Source of the DNA: Thermaceae bacterium
Lineage (GTDB): Bacteria; Deinococcota; Deinococci; Deinococcales; Marinithermaceae
Assembly: GCA_027061845.1 (NCBI GenBank)
Contig: JAMOVS010000059.1
Span: 1 to 33,349 of the forward strand
DNA: 33,349 nt
Direction of reading: 5' to 3'
Both the position numbers and the translations under genes were made by a program. This document shows positions 23,312-33,349 of the stretch, piece by piece; position 1 is the stretch's first letter; each line of letters opens with the position of its first letter. The notes beneath the pieces are model-generated. The model made no database searches and had not been told where the DNA came from. It was given only the letters and a program-made list of their open reading frames with translations.

Positions 23312-24997
23312 CTAGTCGAGGAGGGTGAACCCGAGCGCCTGGGCCCGCTCGACGAAGTACTGGATGTTCTCGCTCTTCGTCTCGCCGCCGAGGCTTTTGC
23401 GCTCGAAGGCCGCCTCGGCGGCGAGGATCATGGTCTCGGCGAGGCAGGCGGGCACCAGGTCGGGGCCGCCGAAGTGGAGGTCCAGGGTGCTCTTCGCCTC
23501 GCCCGGGAGCCGCACCACGCCGCCCGGGATCACCCGCACGCCGGGGATCTTCTTGACCTCGGGGTGGACGTCCGGGGGCACCCCCTCGTCGTAGATCCAG
23601 GCCCCTTCCTTGACGTGCTCGGGCAGGATCACCGGCTCGGGGTCGCTGGTGGCGGTGAAGATCAGGTCGGCCTCTTTGAGGCTTTGGTAGTCGGTGGTGG
23701 CGACGACCTCGGTCTCGACGCCTTTGCGGGCCAGGTTCTTCCGCAGGCTCTCGGCGATCTTCTCGAGCCGTTCGGGGTCGCGGGCGATCAGGATCAGCCG
23801 GCCGAAGTGGGGTGCGACCTGGCGGGCGATGCCGAAGGCGACCACGCCGGTGGCGCCCACCACCGCGGCGGTGGCCTCTTTCGGGTTTTTGCCTTCTTTT
23901 TCAAAGCGCTCGAGGATCCGCGGGATCGCCGCCCGCACCGTACCGGCGGTGAGGGCGCCGCCGTTCGTTACCTGGATCTCGGGGACGGCCTCCTGGACCT
24001 TCTTGCCCTTCTCGCCGACCACGCTCCAAAACGCCCCCAGCCCGAAGACGGTGGCCCCGAGCTCGCTGGCGAGCCGGGCCCCCTGGATCGCGCGTTTGAC
24101 CGCGAGCTCGGGCTTATTCACGATCTGATGGGGCAAAAGGGGGGCCGAGATCAGGTGGCAGCGGATCTCGCGGCCGTCCGCCGTCTTCACCCCGCGGATC
24201 TCGCCCACCTTCATGGGACGGAAGGCCTCGGCGAGGCGCTCGATCCAGGCTGCGGGGACGAGGCCTTTTTCCACGAGGGGCCGCATCCAGCGGAACCGGG
24301 GCGACTGCCAGAAGTCCTCGAGCGTCAGGGGGTGGATCATGAAGGCGCAGACCACGGTCTTCTCGTCGGGAAGGGGAAGCGGCTCGCCGAGCTTGGGCTC
24401 GGTGCCCTCGAGGATCCGGCCCAGGTTCTCTTTGTAGCGCCAGAGCGCGAGCAGAAAGAGCGCCCAGCTAAGCGCCTTGCTCCAGGGGTCGAAGGGGAGG
24501 AAGCTCACCACCACCGCGAGCGCCAGCGCCAGGGTGAGCGAGGCCAGGGTGGCGTAGCCGGTGGCGGCGTAGACGACCAGTGCGGCGGCCAGCGGCACCA
24601 GGGCATAGAGCGTCCCCAGCCCCCCGACCGAGAGCCCTGCCAGCACCCCGAGCAAGACCCCCGCCCCCCGCGCCCGGAGCGGCGTGCGGGGGGCCAGGAA
24701 GGCGAAGGGGTAGAGGTGCCCCAGGTAGGCGAGCAGGGCGGCGGCGAAGGTCCAGGGCGGACCGAAGCCGAAGGGGGTCAGGAGGGCGACCGCCAGGTAG
24801 CCCTTCAAGAAGTCGGCGACGAAGGCCAAAAAGAGCGCCTTGGCGCCGACCTTGCGCAGCGCGCTTTCGAGCCCGAGGTTGTAGGCCGGGGCGGAGAGCG
24901 GGTCCTGGCCGGAGACGCGCTTCGCGATCCAGTAGCCCACCGGCAGCGCCCCGATCAGGTAGGCGAGCATGAGAAGCACCACGCCGAGCGCTTCCAT
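23312..24997 (-). CDS. Fusion protein: N-terminal PlsY-like membrane domain plus C-terminal acyl-ACP-reductase-like (Rossmann) domain
   Basis: aa 1-~200 resembles PlsY (LIGALPVGYWIAKRVSG...FVADFLKGYLAV...AYLGHLYPFAF). aa ~214-561 resembles cyanobacterial AAR (FMIHPLTLEDFW...ATAAVVGATGVVAFGIARQV...LILIARDPERLEKI...LVPACLAETMIL). Continuous 561-codon ORF. Confidence 0.75.
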   Translation of the reverse strand: MEALGVVLLMLAYLIGALPVGYWIAKRVSGQDPLSAPAYNLGLESALRKVGAKALFLAFVADFLKGYLAVALLTPFGFGPPWTFAAALLAYLGHLYPFAFLAPRTPLRARGAGVLLGVLAGLSVGGLGTLYALVPLAAALVVYAATGYATLASLTLALALAVVVSFLPFDPWSKALSWALFLLALWRYKENLGRILEGTEPKLGEPLPLPDEKTVVCAFMIHPLTLEDFWQSPRFRWMRPLVEKGLVPAAWIERLAEAFRPMKVGEIRGVKTADGREIRCHLISAPLLPHQIVNKPELAVKRAIQGARLASELGATVFGLGAFWSVVGEKGKKVQEAVPEIQVTNGGALTAGTVRAAIPRILERFEKEGKNPKEATAAVVGATGVVAFGIARQVAPHFGRLILIARDPERLEKIAESLRKNLARKGVETEVVATTDYQSLKEADLIFTATSDPEPVILPEHVKEGAWIYDEGVPPDVHPEVKKIPGVRVIPGGVVRLPGEAKSTLDLHFGGPDLVPACLAETMILAAEAAFERKSLGGETKSENIQYFVERAQALGFTLLD

Positions 24998-27233: not shown

Positions 27234-28851
<1,618 letters not shown>

Positions 28852-28860
<9 letters not shown>

Positions 28861-30021
28861 TTCATCAAGCACCTCCCCCACCGCCCGGGCGGCCGAAAGC
28901 AGTTCTTCTTCCGTCACCACCGCCGGGGGCAGAAAGCGCATTACGTTCGCGCCCGCCTGCAGACCCAGGATGCGGTGCTCCTCCGCCAGGCGTTTTAGGT
29001 AAGGGGCGGCCTTCTCCTTGAGCTCGATGCCGACCATCAAGCCCTTGCCCCGAACCTCCCGAATCTTGGGGCTTTGGATCTTCCGCAGGGCCTCCATGAA
29101 GACCTCCCCAAGCCGCCCGGCCCGTTCCCAGAGGCGTTCTTCCACTACCGCCCGGATCGCCGCCGTGCCCGCCGCCATCGCCAGCGGGTTGCCGCCGAAG
29201 GTGGAGCCGTGGGCGCCTTTGGGCATCTTGTCGGCGACCGCGTCGGTGGTGACCATGGCGCCTAAGGGGAAGCCCCCGCCCAGGGGTTTTGCCAGCGTCA
29301 GGACGTCGGGCACCACCCCGTAGTGCTCGAAGGCGAAGAGGCGCCCGGTGCGGCCGAGGCCGGTCTGGATCTCGTCGAGGACCAGGAGGGCCCCTACTTC
29401 CTCGGTGCGCCTCCGGGCGGCTTTTAAAAACGCCTCGGTCGCCGGCCGCACCCCGCCCTCGCCCTGGACGGGCTCGAGAATAAGCGCCGCGGTCTCTTCG
29501 TCCACCGCTCTTTCCAGGGCCTCGACGTCGTTGTAGGGGATGAACTCCACCGGCTCGACCAGCGGCATGAAGGGCTCGCGGTACTTTTTCTCCCAGGTGA
29601 GCGAAAGCGAGCCAAAGGTGCGTCCGTGAAAGGAGCGCATGGCGGCGACGAACTTCTTCTTGCCGGTGGCGGCGCGGGCGAACTTGAGGGCGGCCTCCAC
29701 CGCCTCGGTGCCCGAGTTGGTGGGGAAGACCCGGGTCAGAGACTCGGGAAGGACGTCGGTCAGGGCTTTATAGAACTCGGCCCGGCGGTCGGAGGCGAAG
29801 ACCTGGGGCAGGACCATCAGCCTTTCGGCCTGGGCCTTGATGGCCTCGACCACCTTGGGGTGCCCGTGGCCCAAAAACCCCACCCCGATGCCGTTGATCA
29901 GGTCGAGGTAGCGATTCCCCTCGGTGTCCCAGACGTAGGCGCCCTCGCCCCGGGTGACGACGAAGTCCGACTTGGCGTAGACCCCGGAATCGTGGCGCTT
30001 TTCGACGGCGAGCCAGTCCAT
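28852..30021 (-). CDS. lysJ: [LysW]-aminoadipate/glutamate semialdehyde aminotransferase (acetylornithine aminotransferase family)
   Basis: [112 protein letters not shown]. Confidence 0.93.
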
Positions 30022-30030
30022 GCCCCAATG

Positions 30031-30855
30031 CTACTCAATCGCCGTTCCCTGGCCGGCGAGGGCCCGGGTGATGGGGCGGTCGACGCGGGCGTCGGCGAAG
30101 ACCACCCGGCGCACCCCGGCCCGCACCGCCTCGGCGGCGCCCAGCACCTTTTTCTTCATCCGGCCCTCGGCGAAGCGCATGAACTCCTCAACCTGGGCGG
30201 CGGGGATCTTGGGGATGAGGCTACCTTCGTCGGGGTAGCGCTCTAAGAGCCCGGGGACGTTCGAGAGGTAAACGAGCGCCCTGGCGCCGAAGGCCTCGGC
30301 CACCCGGGCGGCGGCGACGTCGCCGTCGGTGTTGATGGCCTCGCCATCAAAACTTGCCGCCGGCGGGGTGAGGACCGGGAGGTAGCCGTGTTCGAGGAGG
30401 AGGGCGAGGAGCTCCTTGTTCACCCGTTCCACCGAGCCGGAAAAGTCGCCGCGGTGGATCTTGACCTTGCCGCCCTCGACGTACTTAATCGCCTTCTTGC
30501 GCTTGCCCTCGAAGACGCGGCCATCCAGGCCACTTAGCCCCACCGCGTTCACACCCCGCTTTTGGAAGAGCTCGACCAGGTGCTTGTTCATCTTGCCGGC
30601 GTAGACCATGTTGAAGATCTCGAGGGTCTTCTTGTCGGTGAGCCGGGAGGTCATGCCGCCGGGGTGGGTCAAAAACCGGGGCGGGTGGCCGAGGGCCTCG
30701 GCGACCCGGTTGGTTTCGGCGCTGGCGCCGTGGACGAGGATCAGCTTCTGGCCCTTCTTCCAGAGCTCGGCCGCGTCCTCGACCACCGCCTCGTAGTCGA
30801 TGCCCTCGGCACCGCCGACCTTAACAACGATCAGCCCGTCTTCCACGCTCCGCAT
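30031..30855 (-). CDS. lysZ: [LysW]-aminoadipate/[LysW]-glutamate kinase
   Basis: LIVVKVGGAEGIDYEAVVEDAAELWKKGQKLILVHGASAETNRVAEALGHPPRFLTHPGGMTSRLTDKKTLEIFNMVYAGKMNKHLVELFQKRGVNAVGLSGLDGRVFEGKRKKAIKYVEGGKVKIHRGDFSG matches the Thermus LysZ pattern. Exact start uncertain. Confidence 0.93.
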   Translation of the reverse strand: MRSVEDGLIVVKVGGAEGIDYEAVVEDAAELWKKGQKLILVHGASAETNRVAEALGHPPRFLTHPGGMTSRLTDKKTLEIFNMVYAGKMNKHLVELFQKRGVNAVGLSGLDGRVFEGKRKKAIKYVEGGKVKIHRGDFSGSVERVNKELLALLLEHGYLPVLTPPAASFDGEAINTDGDVAAARVAEAFGARALVYLSNVPGLLERYPDEGSLIPKIPAAQVEEFMRFAEGRMKKKVLGAAEAVRAGVRRVVFADARVDRPITRALAGQGTAIE

Positions 30856-31962: not shown

Positions 31963-32976
31963 CTATGCCCCTTCCGCTCGGATGAGGGCCCGGATCCCCG
32001 CCTCGAGCTGCCTGAGCGCCTCCACCTCGGTGATCCCCAGCCGGCGCTTGTTGGAAACGTCGTAGACGCCCCCCTCGGCCTGGGTGTGCTCGCCGTGGGT
32101 GCCCCGGACCTGGAGGCCGTGGGCAAGGGCGATGGCCTGGATCTCCTCTTCGGGAAGGCGCTGGAGGCGGACGTGGACGCTCGCCCGCATCCCCGTTCCC
32201 AGGTTGGTGGGACAGCTGGTCAGGTAGCCGAGGCGGGGCGAGCGGGCGAAGGAAAGGCGCCGCTCGAGCTCGGCCAGCGCCTGCACCAACCGGGAGAAGA
32301 CGCGCTTTAAATGGGAGCCCTTTTCCATGCTGATGATGCGGAGCTGGTCCTCCTCGTTGACCCAGACCAGGAAGGTCCTCTCCCGGTTGAGGAAGACGCC
32401 GCGGGCGTCCGGCCAGTGGCGGTTGAAGCCGCCGGCCTCGAGGAAGCGGTCGCCGGCTTTGAAGAGCAGGTGTTCCTCGACCAGCCGGGCTTGGGTGGCC
32501 GGGTCCAGGGCGGGGAGCGGGTGGTAGCTGCCGGCGAGCTCGCCCTCGAGCGTCTCCAGGGCCCCGAGGATCGCCCGCTCGGCCATGCGCCGCTCGCGGA
32601 AGCCGATCACCGGCCCGAAGGGGAAGCAGCAGAGGTTCCGCGCCACCCGCACCCGGGTGGAGAGGACGTAGCGCCCGGCGGGGTCCAGGGGTTGGTCCTC
32701 GAGGCCGCCAGGGTCGAGGTCGGAGACGTGCCGGTCCCCGGGGCCGAAGCCGTGGTAGGCCTCGATGATCGGGTCGAGGAGCGGGGCGAAGACCGAGTAA
32801 CTCTCCTCGTCGCCGGCGTAGACGCCGATCGCCGAGTCGGGGTTTTGAACTCCGGAGGCGATCAGGTGCTCGAGCCGGACCCCGAAGTAGGTCTCGCGGT
32901 CTTTAAGCGCCTGGTAGACCTCGGGGGTCAAAAAACGGGCAAGCAGGGACTCGCCTTCGATTCTGGGAGCCGCCAT
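31963..32976 (-). CDS. Phosphagen (guanidino) kinase, arginine-kinase-like, full length with N-terminal domain
   Basis: FGVRLEHLIASGVQNPDSAIGVYAGDEESYSVFAPLLDPIIEAYHGF, YVLSTRVRVARNL, TFLVWVNEEDQLRIISME, LGYLTSCPTNLGTGMRASVHV, LQVRGTHGEHTQAEGGVYDVSNKRRLGITEVEA. Confidence 0.93.
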   Translation of the reverse strand: MAAPRIEGESLLARFLTPEVYQALKDRETYFGVRLEHLIASGVQNPDSAIGVYAGDEESYSVFAPLLDPIIEAYHGFGPGDRHVSDLDPGGLEDQPLDPAGRYVLSTRVRVARNLCCFPFGPVIGFRERRMAERAILGALETLEGELAGSYHPLPALDPATQARLVEEHLLFKAGDRFLEAGGFNRHWPDARGVFLNRERTFLVWVNEEDQLRIISMEKGSHLKRVFSRLVQALAELERRLSFARSPRLGYLTSCPTNLGTGMRASVHVRLQRLPEEEIQAIALAHGLQVRGTHGEHTQAEGGVYDVSNKRRLGITEVEALRQLEAGIRALIRAEGA

Positions 32977-32991
32977 ACTCCAGCCTACCGG

Positions 32992-33349
<358 letters not shown>

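Follow-up and report, generated by a model that had tools for sequence, protein, structure and literature searches.

A predicted phosphagen-type arginine kinase encoded at a lysine biosynthesis locus in a thermophilic family of Deinococcota

An open reading frame resembling the arginine kinases (AKs) of animals is located among lysine biosynthesis genes in the DNA of a Thermaceae bacterium, which raises the questions whether it encodes a true phosphagen kinase, how it reached this place and what it might do there. The analyzed stretch of DNA, here called the window, is 33,349 nucleotides long and equals the whole contig C59 of a genome that is 76.7% complete and 0.8% contaminated and contains one AK. 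Textbook accounts usually present phosphagen kinases as enzymes of animals and protists, and many invertebrates store quick energy as phosphoarginine. Bacterial arginine kinases are described by Suzuki (2013) and Andrews (2008). AKs are known from Sulfurovum, Moritella sp. PE36, Desulfotalea psychrophila and Myxococcus xanthus (PMC6429109). The kind of enzyme is already known in bacteria, and the new aspect is its thermophilic Deinococcota host. No published AK of Oceanithermus or Thermaceae was found in a literature search, the Thermus part of which covered titles and abstracts.

The 337-codon reading frame reported in the preliminary description exists, but lies on the minus strand; the plus strand of this segment does not code for such a product. 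Using Pfam, both phosphagen kinase domains could be identified in the single chain of the predicted product: PF02807 at residues 9–72 (94.3 bits, cut-off 25.7) and PF00217 at residues 134–335 (229.1 bits, cut-off 22.4). The protein is 48–50% identical over its whole length to the AKs of Limulus, tick and sea anemone, and scored ∼345–357 bits per AK unit against the sequences of solved structures from sea anemone, tick, shrimp and horseshoe crab.

Active site residues were checked in an alignment to Limulus AK, the sequence of which was verified against 1m15 and the numbering of which is used here. D62, S63, G66, Y68, Y89, R124, R126, H185, E224, E225, R229, C271, R280, H284, R309, E314 and H315 all match, including the nucleotide-binding R124, R126, R229, R280 and R309 and the catalytic E225, C271 and E314, and positions 64, 65 and 67 are conservatively changed (GVGI to AIGV), which is in agreement with the motifs quoted in the preliminary description. 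The arginine-type specificity loop S-x-x-G-x-Y is found as SAIGVY at residues 48–53 of the window AK, and Y89 corresponds to its Y74. The only checked catalytic, nucleotide or guanidine contact that is neither kept nor conservatively changed is R312, where the His noticed earlier was confirmed. Since His is present at this position in 61 of 81 bacterial AK sequences and in both domains of the Anthopleura AK, it is the usual bacterial state and not peculiar to the window AK. Across an alignment of 35 bacterial sequences the catalytic residues of AK are invariant.

An AlphaFold2 model of the window AK, with a mean pLDDT of 90.4, adopts the phosphagen kinase fold. In Foldseek searches it matched AK and CK structures with a TM of ∼0.9, and its best PDB matches were AKs, including complexes with arginine or a transition-state analogue (4rf7, 4bg4, 1bg0). 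At the level of sequence and predicted structure, the gene is confirmed to encode a true full-length phosphagen-type arginine kinase. In both sequence (∼50% identity) and fold the best solved match is the Anthopleura AK (PDB 4rf6–4rf9), which shares the VYAGDEESY, STRIRVAR and TSCPTNLGT-like motifs as well as the His at R312 with the window AK, but consists of two fused units instead of one. Compared with Limulus AK (1m15, 1bg0; 48% identity), all checked catalytic residues are kept; besides the change at R312, the window AK lacks 20 residues, most of them at the N-terminus. The bacterial relatives examined have the two-domain architecture and the active site of the window AK, and the AKs of Moritella PE36 (L065) and many Campylobacterota are 50–62% identical to it. 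Unlike the known bacterial AKs, the window AK has a thermophilic Deinococcota host, is located in a lys operon and belongs to a clade of its own.

AK is flanked by lysY, lysZ, lysJ and lysK in this order, all on the minus strand (Table 1), with the spacing lysY–15 bp–AK–5 bp–GH5-like lipoprotein gene–25 bp–lysZ–9 bp–lysJ–78 bp–lysK. The earlier placement of AK between lysY and lysZ is therefore right for the interval, but AK does not adjoin lysZ, as the GH5-like lipoprotein gene intervenes. The tight spacing of the lysY–AK–lysZ string suggests that it may be transcribed as one unit. A full-length lysY orthologue is present in the orthologous contig L096, where lysX and two further ORFs, lysW-like and homoaconitase small-subunit-like and named from their translations only, are located upstream. 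A promoter scan gave nothing useful and no dedicated partner gene of AK was found. PADLOC gave no match for AK, and its interpretation as a defence gene was rejected.

Table 1. Coordinates of the AK locus in the window and loci of argB–AK pairs in Campylobacterota
Feature	Position or locus	Strand	Evidence or remark
lysY 3′ part (LysW-aminoadipyl phosphate reductase, ArgC-like)	32992–33348	−	cut by contig end
Predicted arginine kinase (AK, ATP:guanidino phosphotransferase), 337 aa	31963–32976	−	ATG start, intact active site
GH5-like (cellulase/Glyco_hydro_cc) putative lipoprotein, 358 aa	30881–31957	−	Pfam, synteny
lysZ, [LysW]-aminoadipate kinase	30031–30855	−	NF010659, 443 bits vs cut-off 223
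lysJ, [LysW]-aminoadipate semialdehyde transaminase	28852–30021	−	LysJ_Th_th 665 bits, just under cut-off 700
lysK, [LysW]-lysine hydrolase	27652–28773	−	NF003367, 446 bits vs cut-off 363
argB–AK pair loci, part 1	L011, L014, L015, L016, L019, L020, L021, L022, L028
argB–AK pair loci, part 2	L029, L035, L041, L046, L047, L048, L052, L053, L067

The GH5-like lipoprotein gene between AK and lysZ occupies this position only in the genus of the window, and an O. profundus homologue (59%) is found elsewhere on the chromosome (G003:C2, ∼149.4–150.5 kb).

From the LysW cluster, the preliminary description had proposed arginine or a related guanidine as a reasonable substrate. This argument was not supported. 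LysZ of the window, assigned as [LysW]-aminoadipate kinase, scored 167 bits with the model of the bifunctional aminoadipate/glutamate kinase, below its cut-off of 194. In addition, a separate argB was detected above cut-off in the family genomes by profile search, as was argG in 12 of the 14. The features of a bifunctional LysW pathway for both lysine and ornithine/arginine were not recovered, and on the best reading of these profile scores the lys cluster of the window looks lysine-only. Little can therefore be concluded from it about which substrate AK uses.

Ten of the 14 family genomes contain PF02807; over all Deinococcota it was found in 11 of 111 genomes, the ten just mentioned and one distant genome. 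AK is present in each of the six genomes from the sister genus, which includes Oceanithermus. One of these (G003) is taken as O. profundus and is referred to as O. profundus-like. The presence of an orthologue in this genome supports the thermophilic lineage assumed earlier, as Oceanithermus profundus is a vent isolate that grows at 40–68°C (PMC3111992). Three genomes of the window's genus have an intact AK in the lysY–lysZ interval, and so do the Oceanithermus genomes wherever the contig reaches, there in the order lysY, radical SAM, Memo, AMMECR1, AK, lysZ, so that two sister genera share this location. In a third genus, a one-contig genome of 2,269,167 bp, which we take to be probably Marinithermus hydrothermalis, has contiguous lysX–lysY–lysZ and no AK. 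Within the window's genus, AK is absent from G010 and from G009, where the GH5-like gene lies ∼97 bp after lysY, and is a pseudogene in G008, where it has lost ∼66 codons and carries frameshifts and stops. In G012 the contig breaks at the AK site, and this genome was left out of the presence/absence scoring. The close relatives with a defective copy or none show that AK is accessory and not essential. This distribution would be explained best if AK was gained before the window's genus and the sister genus separated, and was lost afterwards in some genomes. The AK of the distant genome G073 is 51% identical, is located on a contig of 36.5% GC and is placed elsewhere in the tree; it looks like a separate acquisition.

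The lysY–lysZ intervals of the AK-less G010 (L129:7100–9560) and of G008 with its AK pseudogene (L102:4900–5900) contain different small ORFs with the common motif WGERLPSGQCRINQESWWEYR, and the interval is suggested to be an insertion hotspot. In the O. profundus-like genome, in the stretch between AMMECR1 and the intact AK (L094:6771–8986), a reverse transcriptase gene with Drt6 as best PADLOC match (238 bits) lies together with a truncated AK start of 36 codons and a truncated 3′ end of AMMECR1. Apparently a defence-type reverse transcriptase was inserted at a duplicated AMMECR1–AK junction.

Phosphagen kinases had been called rare and patchy in bacteria, which is an understatement, as one scan of the contigs of 84,980 species genomes yielded at least 105 bacterial AK relatives, mostly from marine and vent Campylobacterota, a group whose AKs have been on record for a long time. 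The closest relatives are those of five Thermaceae assemblies (67–82%), followed by those of Campylobacterota (50–62%), Desulfuromonadales, Moritella and others. In a site-heterogeneous tree, in which two rows are Schistosoma mansoni, the family AKs formed one clade (100/100) that was sister to Hydrogenimonas/Nitratifractor-like Campylobacterota AKs (100/100). A separate branch for the family AKs was not rejected (AU p 0.114). After Dayhoff-6 recoding the grouping with the Campylobacterota AKs dissolved and the family clade took a basal position among the marine bacterial AKs. Because an R-rich composition with a high charged-minus-polar (CvP) index is common to the family AKs and the Hydrogenimonas/Nitratifractor-like AKs, their sisterhood is possibly compositional. 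The window AK can be counted among the marine bacterial AKs.

No AK relatives were found in viral contigs, and phage matches were partial, with 26–37% identity over the catalytic domain. Among plasmids, one full-length relative (40% identical) was found in the ciliate symbiont Candidatus Bandiella; the remaining matches were partial and, where annotated, named 'protein arginine kinase'. A mobile element as carrier of AK was rejected on these grounds. The full-length AK-like gene on the Candidatus Bandiella woodruffii plasmid (L133:2893–3990; ∼38–40%, annotated as hypothetical) is located near transposase genes and was perhaps acquired from the host.

Between intact copies of AK, dN/dS was 0.18–0.34, a ratio indicating that the gene is under purifying selection in the family. 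Its GC3 of 0.87–0.93 is like that of neighboring genes, and within the genus AK evolves faster than lysZ (82% vs 93% identity to G011). The CvP index was 11.9 for the window AK and on average 11.8 for the family, compared to means of 6.1 for other Campylobacterota, 1.0 for Desulfuromonadales and −2.4 for the Moritella/Psychromonas AKs. The high values of the family AKs are in the direction expected for heat adaptation, though GC content contributes.

In Campylobacterota, a canonical argB was identified directly upstream of AK on the same strand, with a gap of 27–476 bp, in 18 of 46 informative loci (Table 1), and in many of these a response regulator and a CBS/PAS histidine kinase precede the pair. 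Together these genes possibly constitute an arginine-phosphagen unit. Along the AK tree, the label for argB adjacency switches 11 times, which means that the pair was made or broken many times. This linkage independently supports arginine as substrate of bacterial AKs, better than the lys cluster does, and offers a new lead on function. At one of these loci (L015:7063–8244), a second, tandem AK paralogue straight after the pair, 37% identical to the window AK, has a Gly at the position of E225 and an altered specificity loop; it perhaps has a changed substrate or is a pseudo-enzyme.

The explanation that accounts best for these results, and which is considered quite probable, is that AK is a thermophilic arginine kinase that provides a phosphoarginine energy buffer and was gained horizontally within Deinococcota. 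It would be a single-unit, probably cytosolic, thermophilic enzyme that reversibly converts ATP and arginine to ADP and phosphoarginine, where the active site and the argB linkage in Campylobacterota point to arginine as substrate. By analogy with invertebrates, free arginine might be charged when ATP is plentiful and the phosphate transferred back to ADP when demand rises, so that AK would buffer ATP and phosphate in a vent bacterium exposed to fluctuating electron acceptors and temperature. Co-transcription with the lys genes appears plausible. In the simplest history, AK would have entered once by horizontal transfer, into the ancestor shared by the window's genus and the Oceanithermus-containing sister genus, where it inserted between lysY and lysZ, with later losses; in that case, the lys location is probably a landing site at which the gene is expressed, and not a functional partner. 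Against the energy buffer stands that phosphoarginine is chemically labile and might not be useful at 60°C and above. A broader proposal, in which a phosphoarginine reserve operating at 60°C and above in Deinococcota was transferred between unrelated vent bacteria and is co-regulated with arginine or lysine supply (through argB in Campylobacterota and lysY/lysZ in the window), is possible but doubtful.

The main functional rival to an energy buffer is the management of arginine supply or feedback, in which AK would serve arginine/lysine biosynthesis by relieving the feedback inhibition of acetylglutamate kinase or by keeping an arginine reserve. The argB–AK pairs of Campylobacterota and the position of the family AK between the argC-like lysY and the argB-like lysZ are consistent with it. 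However, LysZ scores as lysine-specific and the true argB is located elsewhere, most AK loci in other lineages are apart from arg genes, and the argB adjacency is as changeable on the tree as described above, which makes this role unlikely. Guanidines other than arginine serve as substrates for further enzymes of this fold, as taurocyamine, lombricine and glycocyamine kinases are among the PDB sequence matches, and Thermus relatives make polyamines via agmatine. Agmatine or aminopropylagmatine, in a Thermus-type polyamine route, or taurocyamine might thus be the main substrate, but the loop SxxGxY for the arginine carboxylate and Y89 are kept, the aligned taurocyamine kinase is without this loop and the Campylobacterota AKs show the argB linkage, and such a substrate is judged quite improbable.

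That the gene is a decaying passenger could be suspected from the pseudogene in G008 and the absences in G009 and G010, and contamination of the assembly had been raised as a concern before. Both are highly improbable, and contamination is refuted: the same locus is present in several independent assemblies, including the near-finished two-contig O. profundus-like genome, the composition of the gene matches that of its neighbors and dN/dS is well below 1. The window AK might also be a protein-arginine kinase of the McsB type that marks proteins for degradation, as the C-terminal catalytic domain is homologous and McsB models match it at 71–140 bits. PF02807 is, however, present in the window AK and missing from McsB, the NCBIfam equivalog models gave 140.5 bits vs a cut-off of 385 and 114.4 vs 500, McsB structures gave 71–87 bits, far below the scores of single AK domains, and no second PF00217 protein was found in the family genomes. 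This assignment is refuted at the sequence level and extremely improbable, and the distinction from McsB drawn in the preliminary description is upheld.

With a thermophilic arginine kinase as the preferred reading, AK is a gene that selection maintains in a family of thermophilic bacteria, the genomes of which apparently include the cultured type strain of O. profundus as well as an AK-less close relative. These AK-containing and AK-less relatives offer a natural comparison for the role of phosphoarginine in bacteria, and the family AKs are predicted to be a source of heat-stable arginine kinase for ATP regeneration.

Elsewhere in the window, the minus strand of positions 23312–24997 encodes a 561-aa protein in which the N-terminus of a PlsY-type glycerol-3-phosphate acyltransferase is joined to a C-terminal part with similarity to acyl-ACP reductase and to the N-terminal region of PigE. 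This fusion is kept in G010 and G013 with 78–87% identity.
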